The notes below the pieces were generated by a model. It was not told the DNA's origin and ran no database searches. It worked only from the letters and a program-made list of their open reading frames with translations. A stretch of 64,000 bases of DNA from positions 434,001 to 498,000 of the forward strand of contig NZ_CP094380.1 in assembly GCF_022809775.1 (NCBI RefSeq), in the 5' to 3' direction. Of this stretch, positions 36,331 to 48,056 are shown piece after piece. The translations under genes were made by a program, and so were the position numbers. This DNA comes from Pseudodesulfovibrio tunisiensis. Its GTDB lineage: Bacteria > Desulfobacterota > Desulfovibrionia > Desulfovibrionales > Desulfovibrionaceae. Within the stretch, counting starts at the first letter, position 1, and every line of letters starts with the position of its first letter.

Positions 36331-37122
36331 TTACCATTTGGCCGGGTTGGTGACGTCCTCGCCGAACCATTTGCGGGAGATTTTGCCCATGGTGCCGTCC
36401 GCGACCATGGCATCAATGGCTTGCTGAACCTTGCCGCGAAGGGCTGCGTCTTCCATGCGGAAGGCGATGCCGAACGCTTCCTTGGTGATGTAGCCGGGCA
36501 GGGCGCGGAACTGACCGGGCCGGGAAGCCATGTAGTAGCGGCCGGTTACGTTGTCAACGACCACGGAGTCCAGACGGTCGGCTTCCAGATCGAGGAAGGC
36601 CTTGGGGTTGGTGTCATATTCACGGATTTCGGCAGCGGCCTTGGGCAGCTTCTGGGCGGCCTGAAGCGCCGGGGAACCGGCCTGCACGCCGACCTTCCTG
36701 TCGCCAAGAGCCTCAAGCGTGTTGATTGCCTTTTCGTCCATGCGCACGGTCGCGATCTGTCCGTCGATCAGGTACGGCTTGGAAAACGCCACTTTCTTCT
36801 GGCGTTCCGGGGTAATGGTCATGCCATTCCAGATGCAGTCGAATTTCTTGGCATACAGGGAATTCATGACGCCCTTCCATTCGGTGGGCTGCCAGACGAT
36901 CCTGATGTCGAGCCGTTTGCCGACTTCCTCGGCCGCATCCACGTCAAAACCCACGAGTTTGCCGCTGTCGTCACGGAATCCCATGGGCGGGAATGCGTCA
37001 TCCAGTCCGATGACCAGTTTGCCGGATTTTTTCACGGTATCCCAGGAAGTGTCGCCAGCAAAGGCGGAAGCGGCACAGAAACACAGTGCCAGAGCCAGAA
37101 AGACAGTAAGTAGACGTTTCAT
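36331..37122 (-). CDS. Polar amino-acid ABC transporter, periplasmic binding protein
   Basis: 263 residues with a Sec signal peptide (MKRLLTVFLALALCFCAAS, cleaved near AFAG). The family 3 solute-binding fold shows GKLVIGLDDAFPPMGF, LVGFDVDAAEEVGKRL, WNGMTITPERQKKVAFSKPY and the QAGSPAL and VVVDNVTGRYY ligand regions. The Arg/Asp pair expected to bind the amino acid is present, but specificity cannot be read. The ATG at 37122 is preferred; an ATG five codons upstream lacks support. It is the first gene of its operon. Confidence 0.9.
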   Translation of the reverse strand: MKRLLTVFLALALCFCAASAFAGDTSWDTVKKSGKLVIGLDDAFPPMGFRDDSGKLVGFDVDAAEEVGKRLDIRIVWQPTEWKGVMNSLYAKKFDCIWNGMTITPERQKKVAFSKPYLIDGQIATVRMDEKAINTLEALGDRKVGVQAGSPALQAAQKLPKAAAEIREYDTNPKAFLDLEADRLDSVVVDNVTGRYYMASRPGQFRALPGYITKEAFGIAFRMEDAALRGKVQQAIDAMVADGTMGKISRKWFGEDVTNPAKW

Positions 37123-37219
37123 CCCAAATCCTCTCATGTGTTCAAAAAGTGAAATGCCTCAAGAAGTTAGGCAACTACAGTATTCGGGAAGAGGTTGCAA
37201 ATGCAAATAAAAATAATGT

Positions 37220-37237
37220 ATTTCAGTATGTTGAAAT
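37220..37237. promoter_or_regulatory. Inverted repeat upstream of the amino-acid ABC operon
   Basis: ATTTCA-N6-TGAAAT, a perfect 6-bp dyad about 100 bp before the binding-protein start; a further GTTTCAAT half-site follows at about 37251. It may be a regulator site. The remainder of 37123-37356 shows no gene. Confidence 0.3.
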
Positions 37238-37356
37238 GCCTTTTTGGGGTGTTTCAATGTATAGACATTTCGGACTTTGGCTGTTCGTCCAAAATTCGGA
37301 AAAGGTGGAAGGGGAAGAGGACTTGTCCAGAAATACCACGTGATCCAGAAGAAAAT

Positions 37357-38300
37357 CGGTTCATCCCAGCGCATACGGGGAACACTTGTTCAGTAGGCTT
37401 CTTTTCGTTTTCAAGAACGGTTCATCCCCGCGCATACGGGGAACACTATCAAGCAGCAGGCCTCAAATGGGCCAGCACCGGTTCATCCCCGCGCATACGG
37501 GGAACACTTGTTCAGTAGGCTTCTTTTCGTTTTCAAGAACGGTTCATCCCCGCGCATACGGGGAACACATCCCCTCCAAATCGGCAAAGTCATTGCGCGC
37601 CGGTTCATCCCCGCGCATACGGGGAACACTTGAAAGCGAACGCGTCGCGGAACTGGAAAGCCGGTTCATCCCCGCGCATACGGGGAACACCAAGCTCCAG
37701 AAAGGCAAGGGCGACGAAGTTACGGTTCATCCCCGCGCATACGGGGAACACATATTGCGCTCCACCATGCGGGCCGCAGCCATCGGTTCATCCCCGCGCA
37801 TACGGGGAACACCGGCTGGCTCGTGTTGATGTTCACGGTGCCGACGGTTCATCCCCGCGCATACGGGGAACACTAGCGGGCATAACGTTCGGGGAAGTCC
37901 GGGAACGGTTCATCCCCGCGCATACGGGGAACACATTACCTTATCCATGCCTGAGACGTGCAGTGACGGTTCATCCCCGCGCATACGGGGAACACTGTTC
38001 ATTTCCACCATGTCCGATCCTCAAACCCGGTTCATCCCCGCGCATACGGGGAACACTCCCTATCAAGGGCGCGTCGATCCGCGCCGGACGGTTCATCCCC
38101 GCGCATACGGGGAACACTTCGCCATCGGCCACACGGTCAAGCCATCCACCGGTTCATCCCCGCGCATACGGGGAACACCGGAGATACACGACATGATAAT
38201 GGCCTCGCGCCGGTTCATCCCCGCGCATACGGGGAACACCCGGGTTAAGCCAAAGACATTCCGTTCTGGGACGGTTCATCCCCGCGCATACGGGGAACAC
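37357..38300 (-). CRISPR. Type I-E CRISPR array, 16 repeats and 15 spacers
   Basis: Sixteen 29-nt repeats alternate with fifteen 32-nt spacers, an exact 61-bp period. On the plus strand the repeat starts CGGTTCATCCCCGCG and ends CATACGGGGAACAC. In crRNA orientation it begins GTGTTCCCCG and ends CGCGGGGATGAACCG, matching the E. coli type I-E form. Transcription is therefore on the minus strand, with the leader next to cas2. The repeat at 37357-37385 has one change (C to A at position 12), as expected for the old trailer end; I saw no change in the others. Spacers at 37386-37417 and 37508-37539 are identical. Expected 5' handle: ATGAACCG. Confidence 0.98.
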
Positions 38301-38386
38301 CCTTGCTGGAGTTGGTTGCATTTCATGAACTTTTTTGTCTGTTCAAAAAATGCCAACTTGAATTCGTTTTTTTGGATTGATATTTG
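38301..38386 (-). promoter_or_regulatory. CRISPR leader
   Basis: The 86-bp AT-rich stretch between cas2 and the first (leader-side) repeat is where new spacers should enter and the array promoter should lie. It contains several A/T runs. On the minus strand TATCAA near the cas2 end could be half an IHF-type site, but the full consensus is not met. Confidence 0.65.
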
Positions 38387-39571
<1,185 letters not shown>

Positions 39572-39572
<1 letters not shown>

Positions 39573-40216
39573 CAGGCCCGCCTCACCAGAAGAAGCCCGA
39601 AGCCGAATCCCTTGGCGCAGCCCACGCCGGAAAAGAGCGCGTGGCACAACGCATCCGGGTCGGACACCTTGGCAAAGCCACGTGCATCGATACGGGAAAG
39701 TACCACTCTTCCGGCGTTGCCCTTCTTGCTGAATCGCTGCTGGTCATACGATTCCGCCATGATCACGTTTTCCAGACGCAGTCCGAGGGATTCCTGCCGT
39801 TTGGCAAGCCATTCCCTTGCTACTCCCTGCGCTATTTCGGCTCGCGTCGGAAGTTTGCGTCCGGGGAGGCCTTGATTCAGAAGCCGTTTCCGTTCGTCCT
39901 GCACCATGTCAACGCGTATCTGCCGGTTGTTCTGCCGTCGTTTCACCACGGGATTGAAGCGCAGGGAAAACAGCACGCGGTCACCGGTCGCCAGCTTGGG
40001 GGCGTAGGGCTTGATGTCCAGCCTGCGGACGAAATCAAGCTGTTCCGGTTCCCGTGCGGACACGGTCAGGAACGTGGTTGCATCCAGACTGCGGTACAGG
40101 AAATCCCGCTGCCTGTCCGGATTGTCGGAAAACAGCTTCCACAGCGCCTGATGCGTTTCGTAGACCTGATTGCGAGCCAGTATGCGGGCGTCCAGCGTGA
40201 TTCTACTCATGTACAT
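39572..40216 (-). CDS. cas6e: CRISPR RNA endonuclease Cas6e
   Basis: 214 residues, the RAMP family CasE. The N-terminus MYMSRITLDARILA contains the Tyr and Arg of the start motif. The catalytic-type His appears in YETHQALWKLF (about residue 22). The C-terminal glycine-rich loop GVGCAKGFGFGLLLVRR is diagnostic. It cuts the repeat hairpin to give 8-nt 5' handles. It overlaps cas5e by 14 bp. Confidence 0.96.
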
Positions 40217-40955
40217 GGTCGGCCTCCTCGGTCTCGGGCAGGCTGAGATGGATCTCGGTTCGCGTGTCGAACTGGCGTTTCCGCGCGTTGGTCAATACAT
40301 CGCGTGTGGAAAACGTCATGATCGCGGGCTGGTCGCCGTACCCCTCGTCAGTCCAGACCTGTGTGCCGGGTCGGGTGTCCCATTCCGGCACCTGTTCGCG
40401 CATTGCATCATAGACATGGAATGCGGCAATGGCATCCTCGGCTTCCAGAACCTCTGGCAGCAGGGGAAACCCGAGAGGGCAGGACTTGCGGCCCAGATAC
40501 AGGGTCAGCCCGGGATGGCGCAGCGCCTCGCGCATGTCATCCAGATCATGGCCCGCATCACTTTCCAGCCAGATGCAGGCCGTGAACGCGGCCCCGGCCA
40601 GATATTCCCGTCGGGAAAGGATGGTGGCCGGTTTTTCGTCCTGCTCCAGCATGGAGACCAGTTCGTCGCGTCGGGTGCGATAGACTCGTTTCTTCGTGCC
40701 GGGCGGCACCTGAACCGTGTGATAGTCCACCATGCGGTCGCCGGGCCTGTCCATGCGCACGGCGAGTCGGCTTGCCTGATGCAGCCGGACCAGTTCGTCG
40801 GGCTGGCTGCGTCGGATGCCCAGTGCCGCCGCCACAAGACCCATCACCCCGGAACGGCTCGGGTGATTGGCCGTGGAGCGCACTTCGCCCACGGCTGCGG
40901 ATGTGCCCCAGCTTTGCATGGGGCCCTTGAGCGTAAAGACGAGATATCGGGTCAT
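40203..40955 (-). CDS. cas5e: Cascade subunit Cas5e
   Basis: 250 residues, RAMP protein CasD, which caps the crRNA 5' handle. Family motifs: YLVFTLKGPMQSWGTSA at the N-terminus, TANHPSRSGVMGLVAAALG, and LYLGRKSCPLGFPLLP (about residue 155). It starts 3 bp after cas7e and overlaps cas6e at its end. Confidence 0.96.
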   Translation of the reverse strand: MTRYLVFTLKGPMQSWGTSAAVGEVRSTANHPSRSGVMGLVAAALGIRRSQPDELVRLHQASRLAVRMDRPGDRMVDYHTVQVPPGTKKRVYRTRRDELVSMLEQDEKPATILSRREYLAGAAFTACIWLESDAGHDLDDMREALRHPGLTLYLGRKSCPLGFPLLPEVLEAEDAIAAFHVYDAMREQVPEWDTRPGTQVWTDEGYGDQPAIMTFSTRDVLTNARKRQFDTRTEIHLSLPETEEADHVHE

Positions 40956-40958
40956 GAC

Positions 40959-42080
40959 CTACTCCGTGATGAAGTCGCAGACCTCTTTCAGGGTTCCGGC
41001 CTCGTGGCTGAAGAAACGGAATTCCGGCGCGGCTCCGAAGATGCGGTTGAAGCTGTCCCGCCTGGTTTCAATGGCTGCCATGGCCGTGTGCAGCAGGTCC
41101 TCGCTGTCCTTCATGGGAGAGAGGAACGCCTCGGCCAGAGTGCGCGGCTGTTCGTCGCCCTTTTCCGCGAGGCAGTAGGATGCGGCCGCGCGCGAGGCAA
41201 AGCTGTTCTGCTTGCCAGTGGGGCTGACAGTGCAGACCGAGCTGACCAGTGCTCTGAGTGCGTGGTTGGCAAGTTCGGTGTCATTGCCCAGATTTTCCAC
41301 GAGCAGGTTGCGGTCAATGCATAGATAGAGGTAGAACAGACCTGCGCCGAATTCGGCCACACCCATGTGTCCGGCCCCGGCATCCTCGGTATTCAGGTCG
41401 TCCACGGCCGTGAAGAAATCATCCTCCACAGTGGCCTTGTGCACGGTCATGGCATGCGCGACCTGAGCCGCGGCTTCCACATTGAAGCTGGGGTTGGCCG
41501 CCAGCATTCTGCCGAACAGGGCCACGTCCACGGCGGTCGCGTCCTTGCGCAGCAGATTCAGGTCGTCCTTGTCCGGCTCCTTGCCGGTTTCGCGGCAGGC
41601 CTCGACCAGCTGTGCGACTCCGTCGAGCTCCGCGGGGCTGACATGCGCCATCTGTTCGGTTTCCAGAGATTCCAGAAACTTTTTCGAACTGAATTCCTCG
41701 TCCTTTTTGGGCTTGTAGTCGGCTTTCATCTTGGCAAACACATTGCCGATGGTTCTGGCGATCTTGACCGCCGGGGACTGCTTGAGTGTCTTCAGGCTGC
41801 CCGTGGCCTTGGGATCGGCCATGACTTCGGCAAAGGTCGCGCCGCTGGTCAGGGCGTGGTACACGTATTTCCCGATTTCCTTGGTGCGGGTGCCGATGTG
41901 TCCGGCGAGCGCCTGCGAAAACGGTTCCGAGATGCGCCATGCACGCTTGAGGCTCTGGGACGATACGCGGAGTCGTTGGGTGTTGCCCATGATCACGGTC
42001 TTGGGGCGCCCCAGATCGTCGCGGTTCAGGTTGCTGGCGGGATACGTGGTCAGGACATGAAGCTGGATGAATTTGGACAT
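40959..42080 (-). CDS. cas7e: Cascade backbone subunit Cas7e
   Basis: 373 residues, CasC. FIQLHVLTTYPASNLNRDDLG and the following RVSSQSLKRAWR are family signatures. Six copies form the crRNA-binding backbone of Cascade. It has a good ribosome site (AGGAG) 7 nt before the ATG. It sits 22 bp after cse2. Confidence 0.97.
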   Translation of the reverse strand: MSKFIQLHVLTTYPASNLNRDDLGRPKTVIMGNTQRLRVSSQSLKRAWRISEPFSQALAGHIGTRTKEIGKYVYHALTSGATFAEVMADPKATGSLKTLKQSPAVKIARTIGNVFAKMKADYKPKKDEEFSSKKFLESLETEQMAHVSPAELDGVAQLVEACRETGKEPDKDDLNLLRKDATAVDVALFGRMLAANPSFNVEAAAQVAHAMTVHKATVEDDFFTAVDDLNTEDAGAGHMGVAEFGAGLFYLYLCIDRNLLVENLGNDTELANHALRALVSSVCTVSPTGKQNSFASRAAASYCLAEKGDEQPRTLAEAFLSPMKDSEDLLHTAMAAIETRRDSFNRIFGAAPEFRFFSHEAGTLKEVCDFITE

Positions 42081-42102
42081 GCTGTTTCTCCTGTAGAAAA
42101 AA

Positions 42103-42624
42103 TCAGTTTGTGCGGTGAGTGTAGTACTGCCGGGCCCATTCGCGCTTGGTGACGTCGTTCCACCAGATGCCGCCCTTGATCAGGCCGTTCAGCGTGGCTG
42201 TGTCGTCGGTCAGGCGGACCATGCGGACGAGTATGCGGAAGAGTTCGTCCCGGTTTTCGTCCATGCCATCCGTATTGTCATTGGCAATGGCAAGCAGCCT
42301 GCGAAAGCGGACATCGCGCATGGCCGGGCTGCCTTTGCCTCGGGTGCCGAACAGGGCCGCGAAATGGGACCCGGATGTCAGGTTGCGGACCCGGGCCAGC
42401 ACGCCGATCGGAAGGGCGAGTCGTTCCAGTTCCGATTCCGTGAGGGCGAATTGCGTGAGGTTGCGGACAATGCCGTCCCGATAAGCCGGCGAGATGTAGA
42501 CTTCCGCCGGAGTCTTGGCCCGCCGCAATTCCGCGCGCTGGCCTCTGTCATCATCAAGGGAGTGCCACCATACGGCGATGATTTTCCAGAATTTTTCATC
42601 GCTCAGGGCGTTATGCAGGCTCAT
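42103..42624 (-). CDS. cse2: Cascade small subunit Cse2 (Cas11e)
   Basis: 173 residues, helical, CasB. FWKIIAVWWHSLDDDRGQRAELRRA at the N-terminus (residues about 11-35) and LPIGVLARVRNL are characteristic. Two copies stabilise the target strand in Cascade. The ATG at 42624 overlaps the cse1 stop (ATGA), so the longer frame reaching 42795 is not used. Confidence 0.94.
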   Translation of the reverse strand: MSLHNALSDEKFWKIIAVWWHSLDDDRGQRAELRRAKTPAEVYISPAYRDGIVRNLTQFALTESELERLALPIGVLARVRNLTSGSHFAALFGTRGKGSPAMRDVRFRRLLAIANDNTDGMDENRDELFRILVRMVRLTDDTATLNGLIKGGIWWNDVTKREWARQYYTHRTN

Positions 42625-44204
42625 GCCGCCTCCTTTTGCGGGTACATGTTGAATGTGCGCAGCTTTTTCACGTTGAAACCGACCATTTTGTCCCGGGCCA
42701 GAACAAAGCGTTCCATGCGTTCCACCGGGATGCCGAATCCCCCGGCGCATTTGTCGAACAGGACCATGCTCTTGTGCAGCAGGTGGCTGCCCCATTCGAG
42801 CATGAGTTCGTCGGTTCGAGCGAGTGCCTCGTCCGAGTCGGGCAGGGCGGCCAGTTTTTCCATCAGGGAGTAGAACATGGATTCGGTTTCGCTCCAGAAT
42901 GCGGTTCCGGCATTGTCGAAGATCGTCATGTCGATTTTTGCCTGATTCTTTCCGGCCTCGTGCACCATGGCGTCCTTGAGCGCGCCCACAAGGTTGCGGC
43001 GAACCTGATCCGCTGCCTGAACCATGTCGCGGACAGTTGTTCGGAAATCAGTGAGGTTGCCCTCCACGACATAGACAGGGAATGCGTGTTCGCACCATTC
43101 CTGGGCTTTGGCATTGTCCATGTCGTATCCGGCCACATTGACTTGTCCGTGGAGTCTTCGGGGCAGGCTTTTGATGCACAGGGCGCGGCCCACGCGGTTT
43201 TCCCCGGCCTTGCCCGAAATCTCGGGTTCGCCGTACACAAGCCCGAGCCAGTTGCTGTATGCCTCGATGTCCGCGCGTCCCTTTATGGACAGGGGTGGAG
43301 TGCTCATGCGGTACGGAGTGAGCGGGTGCAGCCAGTACGAACTGTAATTGCAGCCGTTTGGCCGGGTCAGATAGGTGCGGACCGCAACCGGATGTTCCAT
43401 TCCGCAGATGTCGCACGGCCCGGTTGCTTCGCACTCTTCCAGAACGATGCGCCGGGGCATGCCCCAGTAGGCATGCAGGGGGTGCATTGCCTCGGGCGTG
43501 ACCTCTTCGCCTTTTTCGCTGGTATGCGTGGGGCTCATCCAGGCGTAGACGCCTTTTTCCAGCTCATCCGGTCCGGATGCCGAAGGCAGCTTGACATTGT
43601 CCGAAGGAATCACGTTCAGCCAGACGCTTTCCCAGAGCGTTCTGCCCGGGATCAGCGTGGAGAGGGGGCCGCCGCCGCGCATGGACGTGCGGTGCCCCTT
43701 GCCACCGGCTGGCGCAAATGCCTGAAGCGTGTACAGGGCGGCGGCTGCACAGGCCGGGCACAGGGTCTCCACCTGTCCGCGCTTGATGAAAACGTCCTTG
43801 TTCGTGGTCAGGGTGTTGCCGCTCGGCTGTTCGATGAACAGGGAGGCCACGCCAACGCGTGCAGGCTTGTCCTTTTCCTTCATGGTCAGGTCCTGCAGGA
43901 ATCGGGGGCGTTCGCCGAGCAGGTTGAAGTACGGTTCGTGCGGCGCAAACGCCTGTTGCAGTTGTTCCGGCGACGGCGGTTCGGCAAGTCGTGCCTTCCA
44001 TTCCTTCCGGTTGGCCGGGGCAAACGCGGTCTGCGTCAGCCCGACGAGGAACTCCAGCAACGCGGCATTGAAGTCGGGCCGGGGCGAATTCGGAGCCAGA
44101 GGGGCCAGCCCTTGGCTCGTCATTTCCCACGGCGCGATCCTGCGCATCGTGTTGTCCTCGCACCGAACCGGAAGCCAGTGTTCGGTCAGAAGATTGAATT
44201 TCAT
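42621..44204 (-). CDS. cse1: Cascade large subunit Cse1 (Cas8e)
   Basis: 527 residues, CasA, which reads the PAM and recruits Cas3. FNLLTEHWLPVRCEDN is the typical N-terminus. CPACAAAALYTLQAFAPAGGKG and CDICGMEHP form the cysteine region, likely a zinc site. QDLTMKEKDKP lies before the L1 region. The ATG at 44204 has GGAG 8 nt before it. It is the first gene of the Cascade-cas1-cas2 operon; a structured non-coding leader precedes it. Confidence 0.96.
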   Translation of the reverse strand: MKFNLLTEHWLPVRCEDNTMRRIAPWEMTSQGLAPLAPNSPRPDFNAALLEFLVGLTQTAFAPANRKEWKARLAEPPSPEQLQQAFAPHEPYFNLLGERPRFLQDLTMKEKDKPARVGVASLFIEQPSGNTLTTNKDVFIKRGQVETLCPACAAAALYTLQAFAPAGGKGHRTSMRGGGPLSTLIPGRTLWESVWLNVIPSDNVKLPSASGPDELEKGVYAWMSPTHTSEKGEEVTPEAMHPLHAYWGMPRRIVLEECEATGPCDICGMEHPVAVRTYLTRPNGCNYSSYWLHPLTPYRMSTPPLSIKGRADIEAYSNWLGLVYGEPEISGKAGENRVGRALCIKSLPRRLHGQVNVAGYDMDNAKAQEWCEHAFPVYVVEGNLTDFRTTVRDMVQAADQVRRNLVGALKDAMVHEAGKNQAKIDMTIFDNAGTAFWSETESMFYSLMEKLAALPDSDEALARTDELMLEWGSHLLHKSMVLFDKCAGGFGIPVERMERFVLARDKMVGFNVKKLRTFNMYPQKEAA

Positions 44205-44243
44205 TTCAACTCCGTAAGTATAAGTGTATCGATAGTGTGTCGC

Positions 44244-44283
44244 AAAAAAGGGGCGCACAGTTGCCCCTCTGACAACTGTGCGC
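44244..44283 (-). terminator. Intrinsic terminator 40 nt before cse1 (possible attenuator)
   Basis: Perfect 11-bp stem GCGCACAGTTG/CAACTGTGCGC (44253-44263 and 44273-44283) with a 9-nt loop. On the minus strand it is followed by CCC and six T residues. It lies between the promoter at 44467-44495 and the cse1 start, so RNA made there must pass it to reach the cas genes. Its loop, TCAGAGGGG on the minus strand, can pair with CCCTCTGA at 44350-44357. Confidence 0.75.
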
Positions 44284-44291
44284 CGGGTCGG

Positions 44292-44342
44292 TTATTTGGG
44301 TAATAAGAATTCACACGTATGAAAGAAAAGCAGTGTGTGCAT
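44292..44342 (-). CDS. Candidate 16-residue leader peptide or toxin-like mini-ORF
   Basis: An ATG at 44342 with GAAGG six bases before it opens a 16-codon frame, MHTLLFFHTCEFLLPK, ending in TAA. It is hydrophobic, Leu/Phe-rich, and uses TTA TTA, codons that should be rare in so GC-rich a genome. Its ribosome site and start can be sequestered by the hairpin 44341-44387. It could be an attenuation leader peptide, a CreT-like mini-ORF, or chance. Only ribosome profiling or a fusion test would decide. Confidence 0.3.
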   Translation of the reverse strand: MHTLLFFHTCEFLLPK

Positions 44343-44387
44343 ATTACCTTCAGAGGGATTGTGTTTTTTCCTCGTGGCAGGTAATAT
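44341..44387 (-). ncRNA. Leader RNA hairpin that can hide the mini-ORF start
   Basis: ATATTACCT and AGGTAATAT (44341-44349 and 44379-44387) form a perfect 9-bp stem with a 29-nt loop. The strand nearer cse1 contains the AGG and the AT of the mini-ORF start. The loop contains CCCTCTGA, which is complementary to the loop of the terminator hairpin (8 bp), so a kissing contact is possible. Confidence 0.45.
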
Positions 44388-44432
44388 GATTTTGTACGTA
44401 TCCTTTACCTGTCATGGGGAAGGGAATCTTTT

Positions 44433-44459
44433 AATCGCCCCATTCCGTGTGGGGCGATT
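44433..44459 (-). ncRNA. 5' stem-loop of the predicted cse1 leader RNA
   Basis: Perfect 10-bp stem AATCGCCCCA/TGGGGCGATT with a 7-nt loop. It begins just where transcription from the promoter at 44467-44495 should start (about 44460), so it would cap the RNA 5' end. On the plus strand a T run follows, so a plus-strand terminator is an alternative reading, but no plus-strand gene lies upstream. Confidence 0.5.
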
Positions 44460-44466
44460 TGTTTTT

Positions 44467-44495
44467 TTATATTTGGTGGCAATTTTTTTTGTCAA
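44467..44495 (-). promoter_or_regulatory. Near-consensus sigma-70 promoter for the cse1 operon leader
   Basis: Minus-strand TTGACA (44490-44495), 17-bp spacer, ATATAA (44467-44472); TATAAA one base further is an alternative -10. It directs RNA toward cse1, giving a leader of about 256 nt. The strongest promoter match I found in the window. Confidence 0.7.
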
Positions 44496-44508
44496 TAATG
44501 AACTTTAA

Positions 44509-44564
44509 AAATTTTAACAAATTCATATTTAGATTTTGCTTAAATTTTAACAAATTCATATTTA
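44509..44564. repeat. Two 23-bp direct repeats abutting the cse1 promoter
   Basis: Identical 23-bp AT-rich sequences at 44509-44531 and 44542-44564, 33 bp apart start to start, just upstream of the -35 element. On the minus strand each contains TATGAATTTGTTAAAATTT, which resembles the first 19 nt of the mini-CRISPR guide. They may be Cascade target sites or operators for a protein. Confidence 0.75.
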
Positions 44565-44575
44565 ACTATTTGACA

Positions 44576-44669
44576 TATAAAAATCCCCGCAGTGCGGGGA
44601 ACATAATAATTTTTTGCCATATTTTGGCAAACTCATACGGTTCATCCCCGCCCGAGCGGGGATGAACCG
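44576..44669 (-). ncRNA. One-spacer mini-CRISPR (CreR/CreA-like guide RNA) between cas3 and cse1
   Basis: In the cas direction, a first pseudo-repeat (44638-44669) ends in the exact 14 nt GCGGGGATGAACCG of the real repeat, so it can give the normal 5' handle. Its other half is the inverse of this, making a perfect 14-bp palindrome. A 33-nt spacer (44605-44637) follows. The second pseudo-repeat (44576-44604) keeps TGTTCCCCG and GCGGGGAT of the repeat with a one-base-shorter loop, and then runs into TTTTT, so it can also terminate. The spacer begins TATGAGTTTGCCAAAAT. It matches the two repeats beside the cse1 promoter at 14 of the first 17 positions; one of the mismatches is at position 6 and one at 12, which type I-E Cascade flips out. 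Confidence 0.65.
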
Positions 44670-44670
44670 T

Positions 44671-44700
44671 TCAATACAACGGTTTTTCGAATTCAGTCAA
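44671..44700 (-). promoter_or_regulatory. Possible promoter for the mini-CRISPR
   Basis: Minus-strand TTGACT (44695-44700), 18-bp spacer, TATTGA (44671-44676). It overlaps the cas3 stop codon and would start RNA close to the first pseudo-repeat. The -10 is poor, so this is tentative. Confidence 0.3.
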
Positions 44701-47311
44701 TCTGCAATCCCGATGTTTCGGAATACCTCACTGTCACTTCCTGGCCCCTGCCGTTTTTGGCCTTGCCTTTCCATATGCCCGGGGCTGTTTCCCGAACAGG
44801 GAGGCAGACACACCACTTGCCCTTGTCCGGCATGGCGGCCACGAGATCGTCAAAGGCCCGGGGCGAGGTCGGCGGCGGGACGGCTTCCGTGACTCGGCTC
44901 TGCATGACGCGGATTTCCGAACGCAGGCAGGTGGGCATGGTCGGGCCGGAACCGGTGTCGGCCCAGAGGCGGGCCGTGCCGTTCTCCATACGGATCAGAC
45001 GAAGGCCGTGGGACGGTTCGCCCAGACGTGTGGGCGCGGTGATTTCCGGTCCCCATGGATTGCTGTCCGCCAGATACCCGCAGTCGAATTGCAGCTTCAC
45101 GAAATTGGCGGCGGCGCGGTCGCTCAACTGTTTCGCAAGGGCCTTGGTCTGTTCCTCAAGAGCCTGTGGCGTGCGAATCTCCCGGTTGCCATAGGCGCCC
45201 TCCACCAGTTCGCGCGCATCCTCGGGCAGGCGCAGGCATCCCTTGTCGCAGAGCAGGCGTGCCGTACGCCACAGCAGGGCCGGGTCGGGGTACACATATT
45301 GTCCCTTGGCAAAGAAGTCGGCGTACCATGTCCCGGCAACATCCGGTGCCGGATTCGGCATGAGCACATGCATCACGGCCTGCTCGTAGCCGGGCGGTCT
45401 TTGGCGTTCATGACGATGGCATCGTCCGGCGCGCTGGATCAGCAGTTCCATGGGCGCGAGATCCGAAAGGAGCAGGTCGAAATCCAAGTCGAGAGATTGT
45501 TCAACTACCTGAGATGCAAGGAGAATTTTTTTGCGCCTGTCCTTCGCGCAACTCTGTTTGCCGAAGCGGGCGAGAACTTTTCTTTCAATGGCTGCCCTGT
45601 CGCAGCCCGTGAACGCGGCATGAAAAATCAGCACGTCCTCGGTAGGCAGGCCGTATTCTTCAGTCAGGACACGAGCGGCTTCCAATACATCATATACGGT
45701 GTTGCGTACCCAGCAGGCGCAGGCGCCGTCCCGGTGCGCCCGGCACAGCGTCTCGAACATGGCGGACTCGTCGTGTTCCGGGAGCACGGTCACGTTCAGG
45801 GCGCGATTCGTGTCCACCGGCTGTTCCATGGTCCTGCCGTCGGCCACGCGCGTCATGAGCGGGAAGTGTTCTTCCTTTGCGGTAAAAGGTTCGCAGGGGG
45901 CATCGGCAAGCTCGCGTCCCTTTGTCCATGCCGCGACCAGTCCCTGTCGCAGGCTCCGGGGCAGGGTGGCGGACAGCAGTATTGCGCTGCCGCTCATGGC
46001 AGCATGAAAGGTGAGCAGATTCTTCAGAAGTGTCCCCGTGTATTCGTCATAGGCGTGCACCTCGTCCGCCACGAGCACGGAACGGCACAGGCCGAGCAGT
46101 CGGAGCGACTGGTGCCGCGCTCCCAGCACGCTCAGCAGGGCCTGATCAATGGTTCCGGCTCCGCAGGGCGCGAGCAGGGATTTCTTGCGATTGTCCGCAA
46201 GCCACGCGGAGCACGTGGCGCGTCCGTCGCTTCTGCCATTGTCGCAAGCCGTGTCGTGCGTGAGGCTGGCAATGAAGTCGTTGTTCAGCACGGTTCCGCC
46301 GTGTGCCAGAACCAGCGACGCGTCCGGGGTGTCGAACAGGGCGTGGTAGGATTCGGAAAGTCTGTCGTACATGGCGTTGGCCGTGGCCATGGTGGGCAGT
46401 CCCACGAATATGCCGGATGCCAATCCGTGGCGCATGAGCCGATGTGCAGCCAGAATCGCGGCCTCGGTCTTGCCTCCGCCGGTCAGGTCTTCCAGAATCA
46501 GCAGTTCGGGGCCGGACGGTTCGGGAAGGTTCATGACCGCCGTTTGCATGAGGCCGGGAGTGGCGTTTTGCGGAAGGTGAGGCAGCAGGGTGTGAAATGC
46601 CGAATTCGGACTTGGCGGAACTTCCTTCAGATGCAGGTCTGCCACGGCCCGTGAGGCCTTTTCCTGAGCCTTTGGCCAGTATGCCGAGGTCCCGCGCCAT
46701 TGGCTGTCCGGTCCGAACCAGTGTTCGTTGGAGCCGATCCAGTCCGCAAGGATGGTCAGGCCCGCTGCAAGCCATGACAAGTGGGTGAAATCCGGATCAT
46801 CGCCAAATGGAGCGAGAGGAAAGAGCGCGGCGACCTCCAGCAGATATTCCCGGGCGTCTTCTGTTGTTGATCGAGGAATGTCCCGCCGGGAAAGTTCCCG
46901 GAATGCTTCGGGAGTGCCGTGGTGACACAGGGTCGCAACAAGAAGCGGCTTCAACAGGTCTTCCTCAGGCAGTTCGAGATCAACGCCTGGACGGACGATG
47001 TTCCAGAGATTGAGCCCCAGCACCGTGTGATGCGGGCCGCCCCTTGCCGGATGGCCGAGGCGTTTCCCCAGAGCCGGATCAAGGTTCTGAAATGCCGGAA
47101 GCAGTTTTCCCAGATCATGGCAGGCGATCAGGAACAGAAGAAGGTTTTCCGTTTGCGTTTCCGTGGCCGGAGAGAGCAAAGCCATGACCGTGCGCCATCG
47201 GGGATTGGCTCGCAGCAGGGCCTGCGCAACGGCTGCCACATCCAGACAATGGTGGCATGCATGATGCCACTCCCCGTTGGAAAAGGTCTTTCCCCAGTAG
47301 TCGAATTGCAT
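44693..47311 (-). CDS. cas3: CRISPR-associated helicase-nuclease Cas3
   Basis: 872 residues. The N-terminal HD nuclease has WHHACHHCLDVAAV and LIACHDLGKLLPAFQ. The superfamily 2 helicase has EDLTGGGKTEAAI (motif I), VADEVHAYD (motif II, DEVH), LLSATLP (motif III) and IQRAGRCHRH (motif VI). It degrades DNA bound by Cascade. I chose the ATG at 47311 because it precedes the HD domain as in the family and has a purine-rich ribosome site. The upstream terminator of the barrel gene ends only about 20 bp before it, leaving almost no room for a promoter. Confidence 0.96.
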   Translation of the reverse strand: MQFDYWGKTFSNGEWHHACHHCLDVAAVAQALLRANPRWRTVMALLSPATETQTENLLLFLIACHDLGKLLPAFQNLDPALGKRLGHPARGGPHHTVLGLNLWNIVRPGVDLELPEEDLLKPLLVATLCHHGTPEAFRELSRRDIPRSTTEDAREYLLEVAALFPLAPFGDDPDFTHLSWLAAGLTILADWIGSNEHWFGPDSQWRGTSAYWPKAQEKASRAVADLHLKEVPPSPNSAFHTLLPHLPQNATPGLMQTAVMNLPEPSGPELLILEDLTGGGKTEAAILAAHRLMRHGLASGIFVGLPTMATANAMYDRLSESYHALFDTPDASLVLAHGGTVLNNDFIASLTHDTACDNGRSDGRATCSAWLADNRKKSLLAPCGAGTIDQALLSVLGARHQSLRLLGLCRSVLVADEVHAYDEYTGTLLKNLLTFHAAMSGSAILLSATLPRSLRQGLVAAWTKGRELADAPCEPFTAKEEHFPLMTRVADGRTMEQPVDTNRALNVTVLPEHDESAMFETLCRAHRDGACACWVRNTVYDVLEAARVLTEEYGLPTEDVLIFHAAFTGCDRAAIERKVLARFGKQSCAKDRRKKILLASQVVEQSLDLDFDLLLSDLAPMELLIQRAGRCHRHERQRPPGYEQAVMHVLMPNPAPDVAGTWYADFFAKGQYVYPDPALLWRTARLLCDKGCLRLPEDARELVEGAYGNREIRTPQALEEQTKALAKQLSDRAAANFVKLQFDCGYLADSNPWGPEITAPTRLGEPSHGLRLIRMENGTARLWADTGSGPTMPTCLRSEIRVMQSRVTEAVPPPTSPRAFDDLVAAMPDKGKWCVCLPVRETAPGIWKGKAKNGRGQEVTVRYSETSGLQID

Positions 47312-47332
47312 GGTGTCCCCTCTCCGGAGGGT

Positions 47333-47367
47333 AAAAAAAAAGCCCCGCCAATCATGGTCGGGGCTTT
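47333..47367 (-). terminator. Terminator after the beta-barrel gene
   Basis: 9-bp stem AAAGCCCCG/CGGGGCTTT (47339-47347 and 47359-47367), extended by CCA/TGG inside, with a long T run on the minus strand. It lies directly upstream of cas3. Confidence 0.85.
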
Positions 47368-47379
47368 GAGGCAAGGTAC

Positions 47380-47976
47380 CTAGAAATTGTATCGCAGGCC
47401 CAGACCGAGTCTGTGGGCGTCGAAATCGCCCTTTACCCCGTCATAATCCAGCGTATCCAGACCGAACGTGTACTTGTAGTCCAGATTCATGGATATGTTT
47501 TCCGTCAGGTGGTAGCCGACACCGAGGATGGGTTGCATCAGGGGAACGCTATCCGAGGCATGGTCGCCGTACACTTCGCCCTTGGACCAGCCGTAGCCGC
47601 CGCCAAGGCCGAGGTAGGCAAACCACTGGCTGCTGTTTTCGAATTCCCAAAGCGCGTTGACCATGATGGCCTTCATGTCGACGGAGCCGTCGGGGTGGGC
47701 ACTGGCGCCGCCAGCCTTGACCTTGTCGATGTCCGATTTGAAATAGCTGCCTTCCAGCTCCAGACGCAGTCCGATGGGCCAGTGATAGCCTGCATATGCA
47801 GTGACACCGAAACCCGGGTCGAAGGTGACGTCCAGACCTGTGGCAGATACGTCCGTTTCCTGCAGTTGCTGTCCGGAGAGCAGCATGCCGACATAGGGAC
47901 CGTATTCGGTCTTTGCTGCCATCGCGGTGGAAGCGAGGACAAGGACAAGCATTATGGCAAAAGCAATTTTCTTCAT
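47380..47976 (-). CDS. Outer-membrane beta-barrel protein (OmpW/opacity-like)
   Basis: 198 residues with a signal peptide (about 1-20, cut near AMAA). The mature chain shows alternating strands with aromatic belts (TAYAGYHWPIGLRLELEGSYF, WFAYLGLGGGYG, ISMNLDYKYTFG) and ends in Phe (LGLRYNF), as outer-membrane barrels do. About eight strands are expected. The function is unknown; small pores or surface adhesins share this fold. The ATG at 47976 follows CGGAGGAAA. It is monogenic, with its own terminator. Confidence 0.85.
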   Translation of the reverse strand: MKKIAFAIMLVLVLASTAMAAKTEYGPYVGMLLSGQQLQETDVSATGLDVTFDPGFGVTAYAGYHWPIGLRLELEGSYFKSDIDKVKAGGASAHPDGSVDMKAIMVNALWEFENSSQWFAYLGLGGGYGWSKGEVYGDHASDSVPLMQPILGVGYHLTENISMNLDYKYTFGLDTLDYDGVKGDFDAHRLGLGLRYNF

Positions 47977-48056
47977 GAATTTCCTCCGAATTTGAACGAT
48001 AATTAAATATACGTTCGAAGAGATTCCTTCGCAAGTCTCTTTTTCGGAAAAAACAC

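Follow-up and report, generated by a model that had tools for sequence, protein, structure and literature searches.

A CreA/CreR-type mini-CRISPR between cas3 and cse1 of a type I-E locus, its coevolving target sites and a possible CreT-like toxin

What a CRISPR element with one spacer and degenerate repeats does between the cas3 and cse1 genes of a type I-E locus is the question raised by the 64,000-nucleotide stretch of DNA analysed here, referred to as the window. The genome carrying it measures 3.6 Mb in a single contig, and the minus strand of the window holds the I-E locus in the order cas3, a 488-base gap, cse1, cse2, cas7, cas5, cas6e, cas1, a putative cas2-like ORF and the array. The identities of cse2, cas7, cas5, cas6 and cas1 were confirmed with NCBIfam. 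The first-pass annotation of this DNA had placed a mini-CRISPR with degenerate repeats in the gap and had proposed that its RNA loads into Cascade and represses the cse1-operon promoter.

44693 to 47374, minus strand: cas3 (NCBIfam TIGR01587, TIGR01596)
42621 to 44204, minus strand: cse1/casA (NCBIfam TIGR02547, 7e-79)
37400 to 38300, extending below 37400, minus strand: canonical CRISPR array, repeat GTGTTCCCCGTATGCGCGGGGATGAACCG

The mini-CRISPR is real and occupies 44576-44669 on the minus strand. The details given of it also hold, namely a single 33-nt spacer delimited by psiR1 and psiR2 at 44637-44605, pseudo-repeats that keep both handle and hairpin, and a distance of 6 kb from the real array, whose leader-side repeat begins at 38300, 6.3 kb off.

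44673 to 44700, minus strand: candidate creA promoter, TTGACT (44700-44695), 16 nt, TGTATT (9/12, consensus match only)
44638 to 44669, minus strand: psiR1, CGGTTCATCCCCGCTCGGGCGGGGATGAACCG, a degenerate I-E repeat with a perfect 14-bp inverted repeat, source of the 5' handle
44605 to 44637, minus strand: guide (spacer), 33 nt
44576 to 44604, minus strand: psiR2, ATGTTCCCCGCACTGCGGGGATTTTTATA, Cas6e-type hairpin CCCCGC-ACT-GCGGGG, then a T-run

The TTGACT box of the candidate creA promoter touches the cas3 stop. The 3' end of psiR1 is an 8-nt handle, ATGAACCG, identical to that of the array repeat, and psiR2 was scored as an intrinsic terminator, which makes it repeat and terminator in one. 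This hybrid pattern was present in 3/285 genomes in a pattern search, the matches being psiR2 of a related element (L006), the last repeat of the own genome's second ordinary array and one unexplained case. With one spacer, divergent repeats and no phage record covering 80% of the spacer (the best reached 79% coverage at 92% identity, E 0.03), the element is unlike an immune CRISPR array, and its position outside the array together with degenerate repeats that retain the handle and the Cas6 hairpin is that of a CreA/CreR-type guide. No Rfam family matched 37000-48000 at gathering scores.

Downstream of the guide, the start of the spacer matches two tandem sites next to a promoter, at the places and with the fit that the annotation had given, 14/17 over the first 17 spacer bases at each, with mismatches at 6, 11 and 12.

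44528 to 44560, minus strand: target site 1, PAM AAA (44563-44561)
44495 to 44527, minus strand: target site 2, a tandem copy at 33-base spacing, PAM AAA (44530-44528)
44466 to 44495, minus strand: putative repressed promoter, TTGACA (44495-44490), 18 nt, TATAAA (44471-44466) (11/12)

Nine of the ten seed positions match at both sites, the PAM being AAA and not AAG, and over the full 33 bases the guide has 21 matches with site 1 and 19 with site 2. The last base of site 2 is also the first of TTGACA, the -35 box. Thus a partial seed match with a PAM lies at a nearby promoter, as in elements of the CreA/CreR type, at a PAM of AAA and a promoter of 11/12 that is absent from the list of a stricter promoter scan. 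Genome-wide (3.6 Mb), the pattern TATGANTTTGNNAAAA has three occurrences, one in the guide and one in each site. The window contains a third 14/17 match, within cas7 at 41744, with GGC as an unusable PAM. Tandem sites recur in one relative, L008, which has three, all preceded by AAG, where the two of the window are preceded by AAA.

Such a match could be an accident, the element being a relic, that is, a decayed two-repeat array whose spacer happens to resemble the local AT-rich DNA. When the 371-nt region was shuffled 2000 times with dinucleotides preserved, 1 shuffle reached the 14/17 match and 25 the 9/10 seed match; the latter figure by itself speaks for chance. The relatives supply the evidence on the other side. 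A DNA search with the cas3-cse1 gap in 60 relatives matched the own genome only, and the comparison was therefore made via Cse1, found in 22/288 genomes of the family and 26/348 of the order. A mini-CRISPR is present upstream of cse1 in 16/26 of these Desulfovibrionales loci, window included (curated by reading), and none was seen there in L002, L003, L005, L007, L009, L010, L012, L013, L019 and L026. In L007 and L009 a full CRISPR array stands upstream of cse1 in place of the module. Seven further elements outside the 26 (L038, L044, L072, L109, L080, L112 and L114) give a total of 23 examined with a guide. Of 361 named loci, 80 were taken and all 80 scanned automatically, by a scan that misses degenerate handles; 7 of the 80 were read by eye, and 6 (L037, L039-L043) are loci already in the set and were not recounted. 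A phylum search added 8 new loci (L029-L036), in which no mini-CRISPR was seen by eye in the ~650 bases before cse1. Two of the outside elements lie on contigs binned as Spirochaetia (L044) and Rhodocyclaceae (L038), with cse1 44% and 52% identical, respectively, to that of the window, a closeness that reflects either horizontal transfer or misbinning.

Guides and targets in these loci change together. With the seed defined as positions 1-5 and 7-11 and a threshold of at least 9/10, 15/16 guides have a match downstream in their own gap, against 6/240 guide-by-foreign-gap matches counted PAM-free on both strands; for the sixteenth guide (L028) the target is upstream instead, close to its own promoter. 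The accepted PAMs are AAG, AGG, GAG, ATG and AAA. When one of these and the same strand were required in 20 loci, a match of 9 or 10/10 in the home locus was obtained for 19/20 guides, and one in a foreign locus in 0/380 swapped tests. The guide of L072 (Dethiosulfatarculus sandiegensis) has a 10/10 match on the opposite strand, and those of L080, L112 and L114 have 10/10 matches too, the guides of L080 and L112 being AT-rich; the nearest swap control for these four is the PAM-free two-strand count of 6/240. A PAM-flanked seed match upstream of the own cse1 is found in 23/23 elements examined. Independent variation of guide and promoter among relatives had been named in advance as the finding that would speak against a regulatory guide, and the opposite is seen, the pairing being retained through sequence change as in CreA/CreR-type elements. 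The seeds of the 19 same-strand guides are all different, so the pairing has probably been renewed many times, although these tests count loci, which are related, and not independent events.

The pattern of the mismatches is equally regular. Across the 19 aligned pairs, guide and target are identical at positions 1-5 in 19, 18, 18, 19 and 19 cases, at 6 in 6, at 7-11 in 19, 19, 16, 18 and 13, at 12 in 4, at 13-17 in 15, 17, 11, 11 and 15 and at 18 in 4. Positions 6, 12 and 18 are thus at chance level, 14/57 against 247/285 for the other positions of 1-17. Positions 12, 13-17 and 18 played no part in finding the sites, and there the difference is 8/38 at 12 and 18 against 69/95 at 13-17 (p = 6e-8). 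In Cascade structures position 18 is unread, like 6 and 12. From position 21 onward identity is 0.08-0.44, which fits Cascade binding without cleavage. The PAM is AAG in 17/19 pairs, GAG in L021 and AAA in the window, and in 10/15 loci with a downstream target the distance from the target start to the first base of a TTGAC-type -35 box is 13-34 nt, the L004 box in this count being a second-ranked site. With mismatches placed at 6, 12 and 18 and every one of the 23 mini-CRISPRs provided with a target of its own, against no target in 380 same-strand swaps, a decayed array with a fortuitous match is extremely improbable.

As far as sequence can tell, it is close to certain that a CreA/CreR-type guide directs Cascade binding at these sites. 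Cas6e would cut the mini-CRISPR transcript at psiR1, and at psiR2 the transcript would be cut again or simply end, yielding a crRNA-like guide; the resulting crRNA-sized RNA, starting ATGAACCG-TATGAGTTTG, would load into Cascade. Seed pairing through positions 1-5 and 7-10 would then bind Cascade at the two tandem sites, by a pairing that is probably too partial for Cas3 cleavage, and bound Cascade would cover the -35 box of the strong promoter and turn it off. The part of the original proposal in which a Cascade-loaded partial guide represses a promoter by the cas operon accords with the coevolving guides and targets.

What this promoter expresses is less direct than the proposal assumed. From the promoter at 44466-44495 an RNA of ~215 nt is predicted, with a mini-ORF and a strong terminator ahead of cse1.

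44433 to 44459, minus strand: 10-bp hairpin at the 5' end of the predicted transcript (start site guessed from the -10 box)
44380 to 44388, minus strand: CATATTACC, predicted pairing partner of GGTAATATG, the mini-ORF's SD/start region (mean paired probability 0.92)
44292 to 44342, minus strand: mini-ORF MHTLLFFHTCEFLLPK, 16 aa, SD AAGG, tandem TTA TTA, putative function
44252 to 44284, minus strand: strong intrinsic terminator with a 14-bp stem and T6, between mini-ORF and cse1
44217 to 44245, minus strand: candidate cse1-proximal promoter, TTGCGA-17-TATACT (9/12, consensus match only)

The predicted fold is much stabler than that of shuffled sequences (z -5.6). The 10-bp hairpin at 44433-44459 reads as a terminator on the plus strand too, the SD and start of the mini-ORF sit inside a 10-bp stem formed with CATATTACC, and the terminator at 44284-44252 ends 47 bases ahead of cse1. 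Repression of a cse1-operon promoter is less likely to be the sole role in this arrangement, in which hairpin and mini-ORF intervene; that part of the proposal is supported in part, and a weak promoter-like site (9/12) also sits just before cse1, the end of its -10 box being 12 nt from the ATG. Judged by the relatives, this ~215-nt RNA, made up of a 5' hairpin, a mini-ORF with its start folded away, two TTA codons and the terminator, most likely acts as a CreT-like toxin. If Cascade were lost or blocked, the promoter would fire and the cell would be harmed, and so would depend on keeping its CRISPR. Transcription running on into cse1 may add cas autoregulation. The preferred reading, a creA/creR-type guide that represses the promoter of a CreT-like toxin and possibly also tunes cas, is held as somewhat probable.

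Its weakest point is the window's own mini-ORF, which is not conserved. Being short, with a modest SD, no homologue and no profile match, it could be of chance origin. The comparison with relatives turns on the slot between guide target and cse1, where mini-ORFs of 12-36 residues occur in L004, L006, L008, L011, L014-L018, L022 and L025 and, outside the 26, in L044. They were read by eye in 11 of the 15 other Desulfovibrionales elements, in a reading that was not blind, and L020, L021, L027 and L028, which have the guide, are without such a mini-ORF. Six (L006, L011, L014, L015, L018 and L025) follow SDs that range from AGGAGG to AGGAGGTGA. The peptides are mostly basic and then hydrophobic, as in MTCYRHDRSLFIVVLVVDDLYLIVLLIISPD, with L018 (12 residues) an exception and L022 a partial fit. 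In the four that are alike (L014, L015, L017 and L044), pS exceeds pN in 6/6 pairs, a coding-type substitution pattern. The relatives' peptide profile leaves the window mini-ORF unmatched, likewise those of L004, L006, L008, L018 and L022. In 285 family genomes this profile (A3, built from seven peptides) gave matches with E no higher than 1 in 74, but with E < 0.01 only to five of its own rows, with no copies elsewhere at that sensitivity. Five mini-ORF peptides gave no match in Pfam and, in NCBIfam, one match far under its cut-off. The L004 mini-ORF has lost its stop and apparently runs in frame into cse1. In L020 the slot is taken by an ORF of 98 aa whose matches are weak and of YafQ/RelE type (E 0.02, below cut-offs); it may encode a protein toxin repressed by Cascade. 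Sequestration of the SD was considered as a common feature and set aside, the values in 12 other folded mini-ORFs (0.47-0.80) being weaker than in the window.

How closely mini-ORF and guide go together depends on how the ORF is called. By the non-blind reading it accompanies 12/16 guide-bearing (creA+) loci and 0/10 guide-less (creA-) ones, window included (p = 2e-4), the first count being 11/16 without L004. Under a mechanical rule (SD, 10-70 aa and a hydrophobicity threshold just below the value of the window ORF) the association is weak, 10/16 against 2/10 (L007 and L019; p = 0.05), and is confounded by six of the ten creA- gaps being 34-150 nt, with small room for an ORF. Guide-less L007 has a 62-aa hydrophobic, SD-led ORF upstream of cse1 and guide-less L019 a 27-aa ORF with a GTG start, and by eye L003, L005 and L012 show ORF remnants without a guide.

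Because the co-occurrence fell to p = 0.05 under the mechanical rule, confidence in the toxin is slightly reduced and part of it passes to a rival reading, namely that the guide sends Cascade against the cse1 operon itself, as CreR does, and that the ~215-nt leader is a leaky attenuator or spacer RNA with no toxin. In L027, L038 and L109 no mini-ORF was seen and cse1 follows directly upon guide, target and promoter; in L008, L015, L018, L022, L025 and L044 the hairpin after the ORF has no run of at least 4 T, which would permit transcription to continue into cse1; and CreR is known for type I-E (PMC13131331). Opposed to it are the T6 terminator with its 14-bp stem that intervenes in the window, the mini-ORF read in the slot of most other elements of the order, and L002, L003 and L005, of the same genus or family, which retain cse1 without this promoter. 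A guide acting on cas alone is possible for the window, though doubtful. Judged by sequence, two output forms would exist, a CreR design in L027, L038 and L109 and a CreTA design in the window and in the 11 of 15 others with a mini-ORF by reading; cas autorepression is the natural reading only for the former three, in which promoter and cse1 are adjacent.

The tandem TTA of the mini-ORF admits a further explanation, attenuation by a leader peptide, in which a ribosome stalled at TTA TTA would set the terminator, so that Cascade would answer to tRNA-Leu(UAA) and the guide would form a second layer. TTA is the rarest of the 61 sense codons in the window (9/16532 codons in 37 ORFs, none with a tandem pair), and here the pair adjoins a terminator; in 13 mini-ORFs, 13/15 TTA codons fall within the last 8 codons (p = 5e-6). 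No exact upstream stretch of at least 5 bases complements the 5' arm of the terminator, and so no antiterminator is seen, and conservation among the four related ORFs is at the peptide level, both of which argue against attenuation and make it highly unlikely. TTA makes up 14/51 Leu codons in 12 mini-ORFs against 3/541 in cse1 of the same genomes (p = 1e-13), and ATA is not enriched (7/57 in mini-ORFs against 19/155). In a frame control over 13 mini-ORFs, TTA was counted 15 times in frame, 12 times in the +1 frame and 4 times in the +2 frame; composition therefore explains part of the excess, and selection for TTA codons, another candidate, is weakened by the 15 against 12.

CreR is reportedly the subject, as cas-regulating RNAs, of Liu et al. 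2023 in Cell Host Microbe. Three sources report for type I-E a mini-CRISPR in the cas locus with limited pairing to a cas-region promoter (PMC13131331, PMC12948488, PMC12737573), features that the window shares. Unlike CreR as described there, the window has a promoter parted from cse1 by terminator and mini-ORF, two tandem target sites and a psiR2 that is a terminator. The closest counterpart of the putative toxin module is the I-E CreTA of Citrobacter rodentium. Its 96-bp ORF, situated in the cas3-casA gap, causes growth arrest once it is translated, and a Cascade mutant is rescued by deletion of a gap segment (PMC12055562). Compared by description, both modules lie in the cas3-casA gap and have a PAM-flanked partial target by a promoter and a short ORF with an RBS, whereas the Citrobacter creA is on the opposite strand, not in the same direction as in the window, and its ORF is without rare codons, unlike the tandem TTA here (PMC12055562). 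In haloarchaeal I-B CreA, seed positions 1-5 and 7-11 are essential and 6 and 12 unpaired (PMC8501985). The window resembles the I-B CreTA of H. hispanica and H. hubeiense in its degenerate repeats (two in H. hubeiense), in leaving 6 and 12 free and in a mini-ORF that has two rare codons in a row and is followed by a stem-loop, but the I-B rare codons are AGA or AUA near the ORF start and those of the window are TTA near the end (PMC8501985). With Acinetobacter I-F CreTA, in the cas3-csy1 gap, it shares a mini-ORF after an SD and the order psiR1-psiS-psiR2, while that module is divergent and reportedly owes its toxicity to RNA and not to a peptide (PMC10097628). CrePA likewise uses a Cascade guide to repress a toxin promoter; its toxin is a KilA-N type protein, and here only L020 was noticed with a protein-sized slot ORF (PMC12737573). 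Among the matches listed from the open-licence PMC literature, no paper dealt with such modules in Desulfovibrio or Desulfovibrionales. While the mechanism itself has been described (CreR 2023; Citrobacter I-E CreT 2025), the Desulfovibrionales set appears to be a further variant of it.

A bolder reading would make Cascade-repressed toxins of Desulfovibrionales I-E loci a lineage-wide family of translated peptides of ~30 residues, basic and then hydrophobic, with TTA near the end. The window would keep a remnant, a 16-codon mini-ORF with TTA TTA close to its end that acts mainly by tying up tRNA-Leu(UAA), and promoter leak into cse1 would both guard and dose the immune complex; this is rather unlikely. 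The wild guide-promoter pairs, diverging together with chance identity at 6, 12 and 18, offer an evolutionary readout of the important Cascade contacts. If the toxin part of the preferred reading is true, genes for CRISPR addiction lie hidden in the cas3-cse1 gap of a group of environmental bacteria; this would help to explain the persistence of I-E systems, would affect deletion or transfer of such loci and would provide toxin-repression pairs ready for anti-CRISPR screens.

Two minor observations concern the ordinary arrays. In the window array, at 37400-37540, the first 18 bases (TTCTTGAAAACGAAAAGA) are shared by two spacers, a possible spacer duplication. A second I-E array of the own genome, L139, lies outside the window near 3411685 with the repeat GTGTTCCCCACGTGTGTGGGGATGAACCG; a run of T follows the final repeat of this array, so the terminal repeat may double as a terminator.
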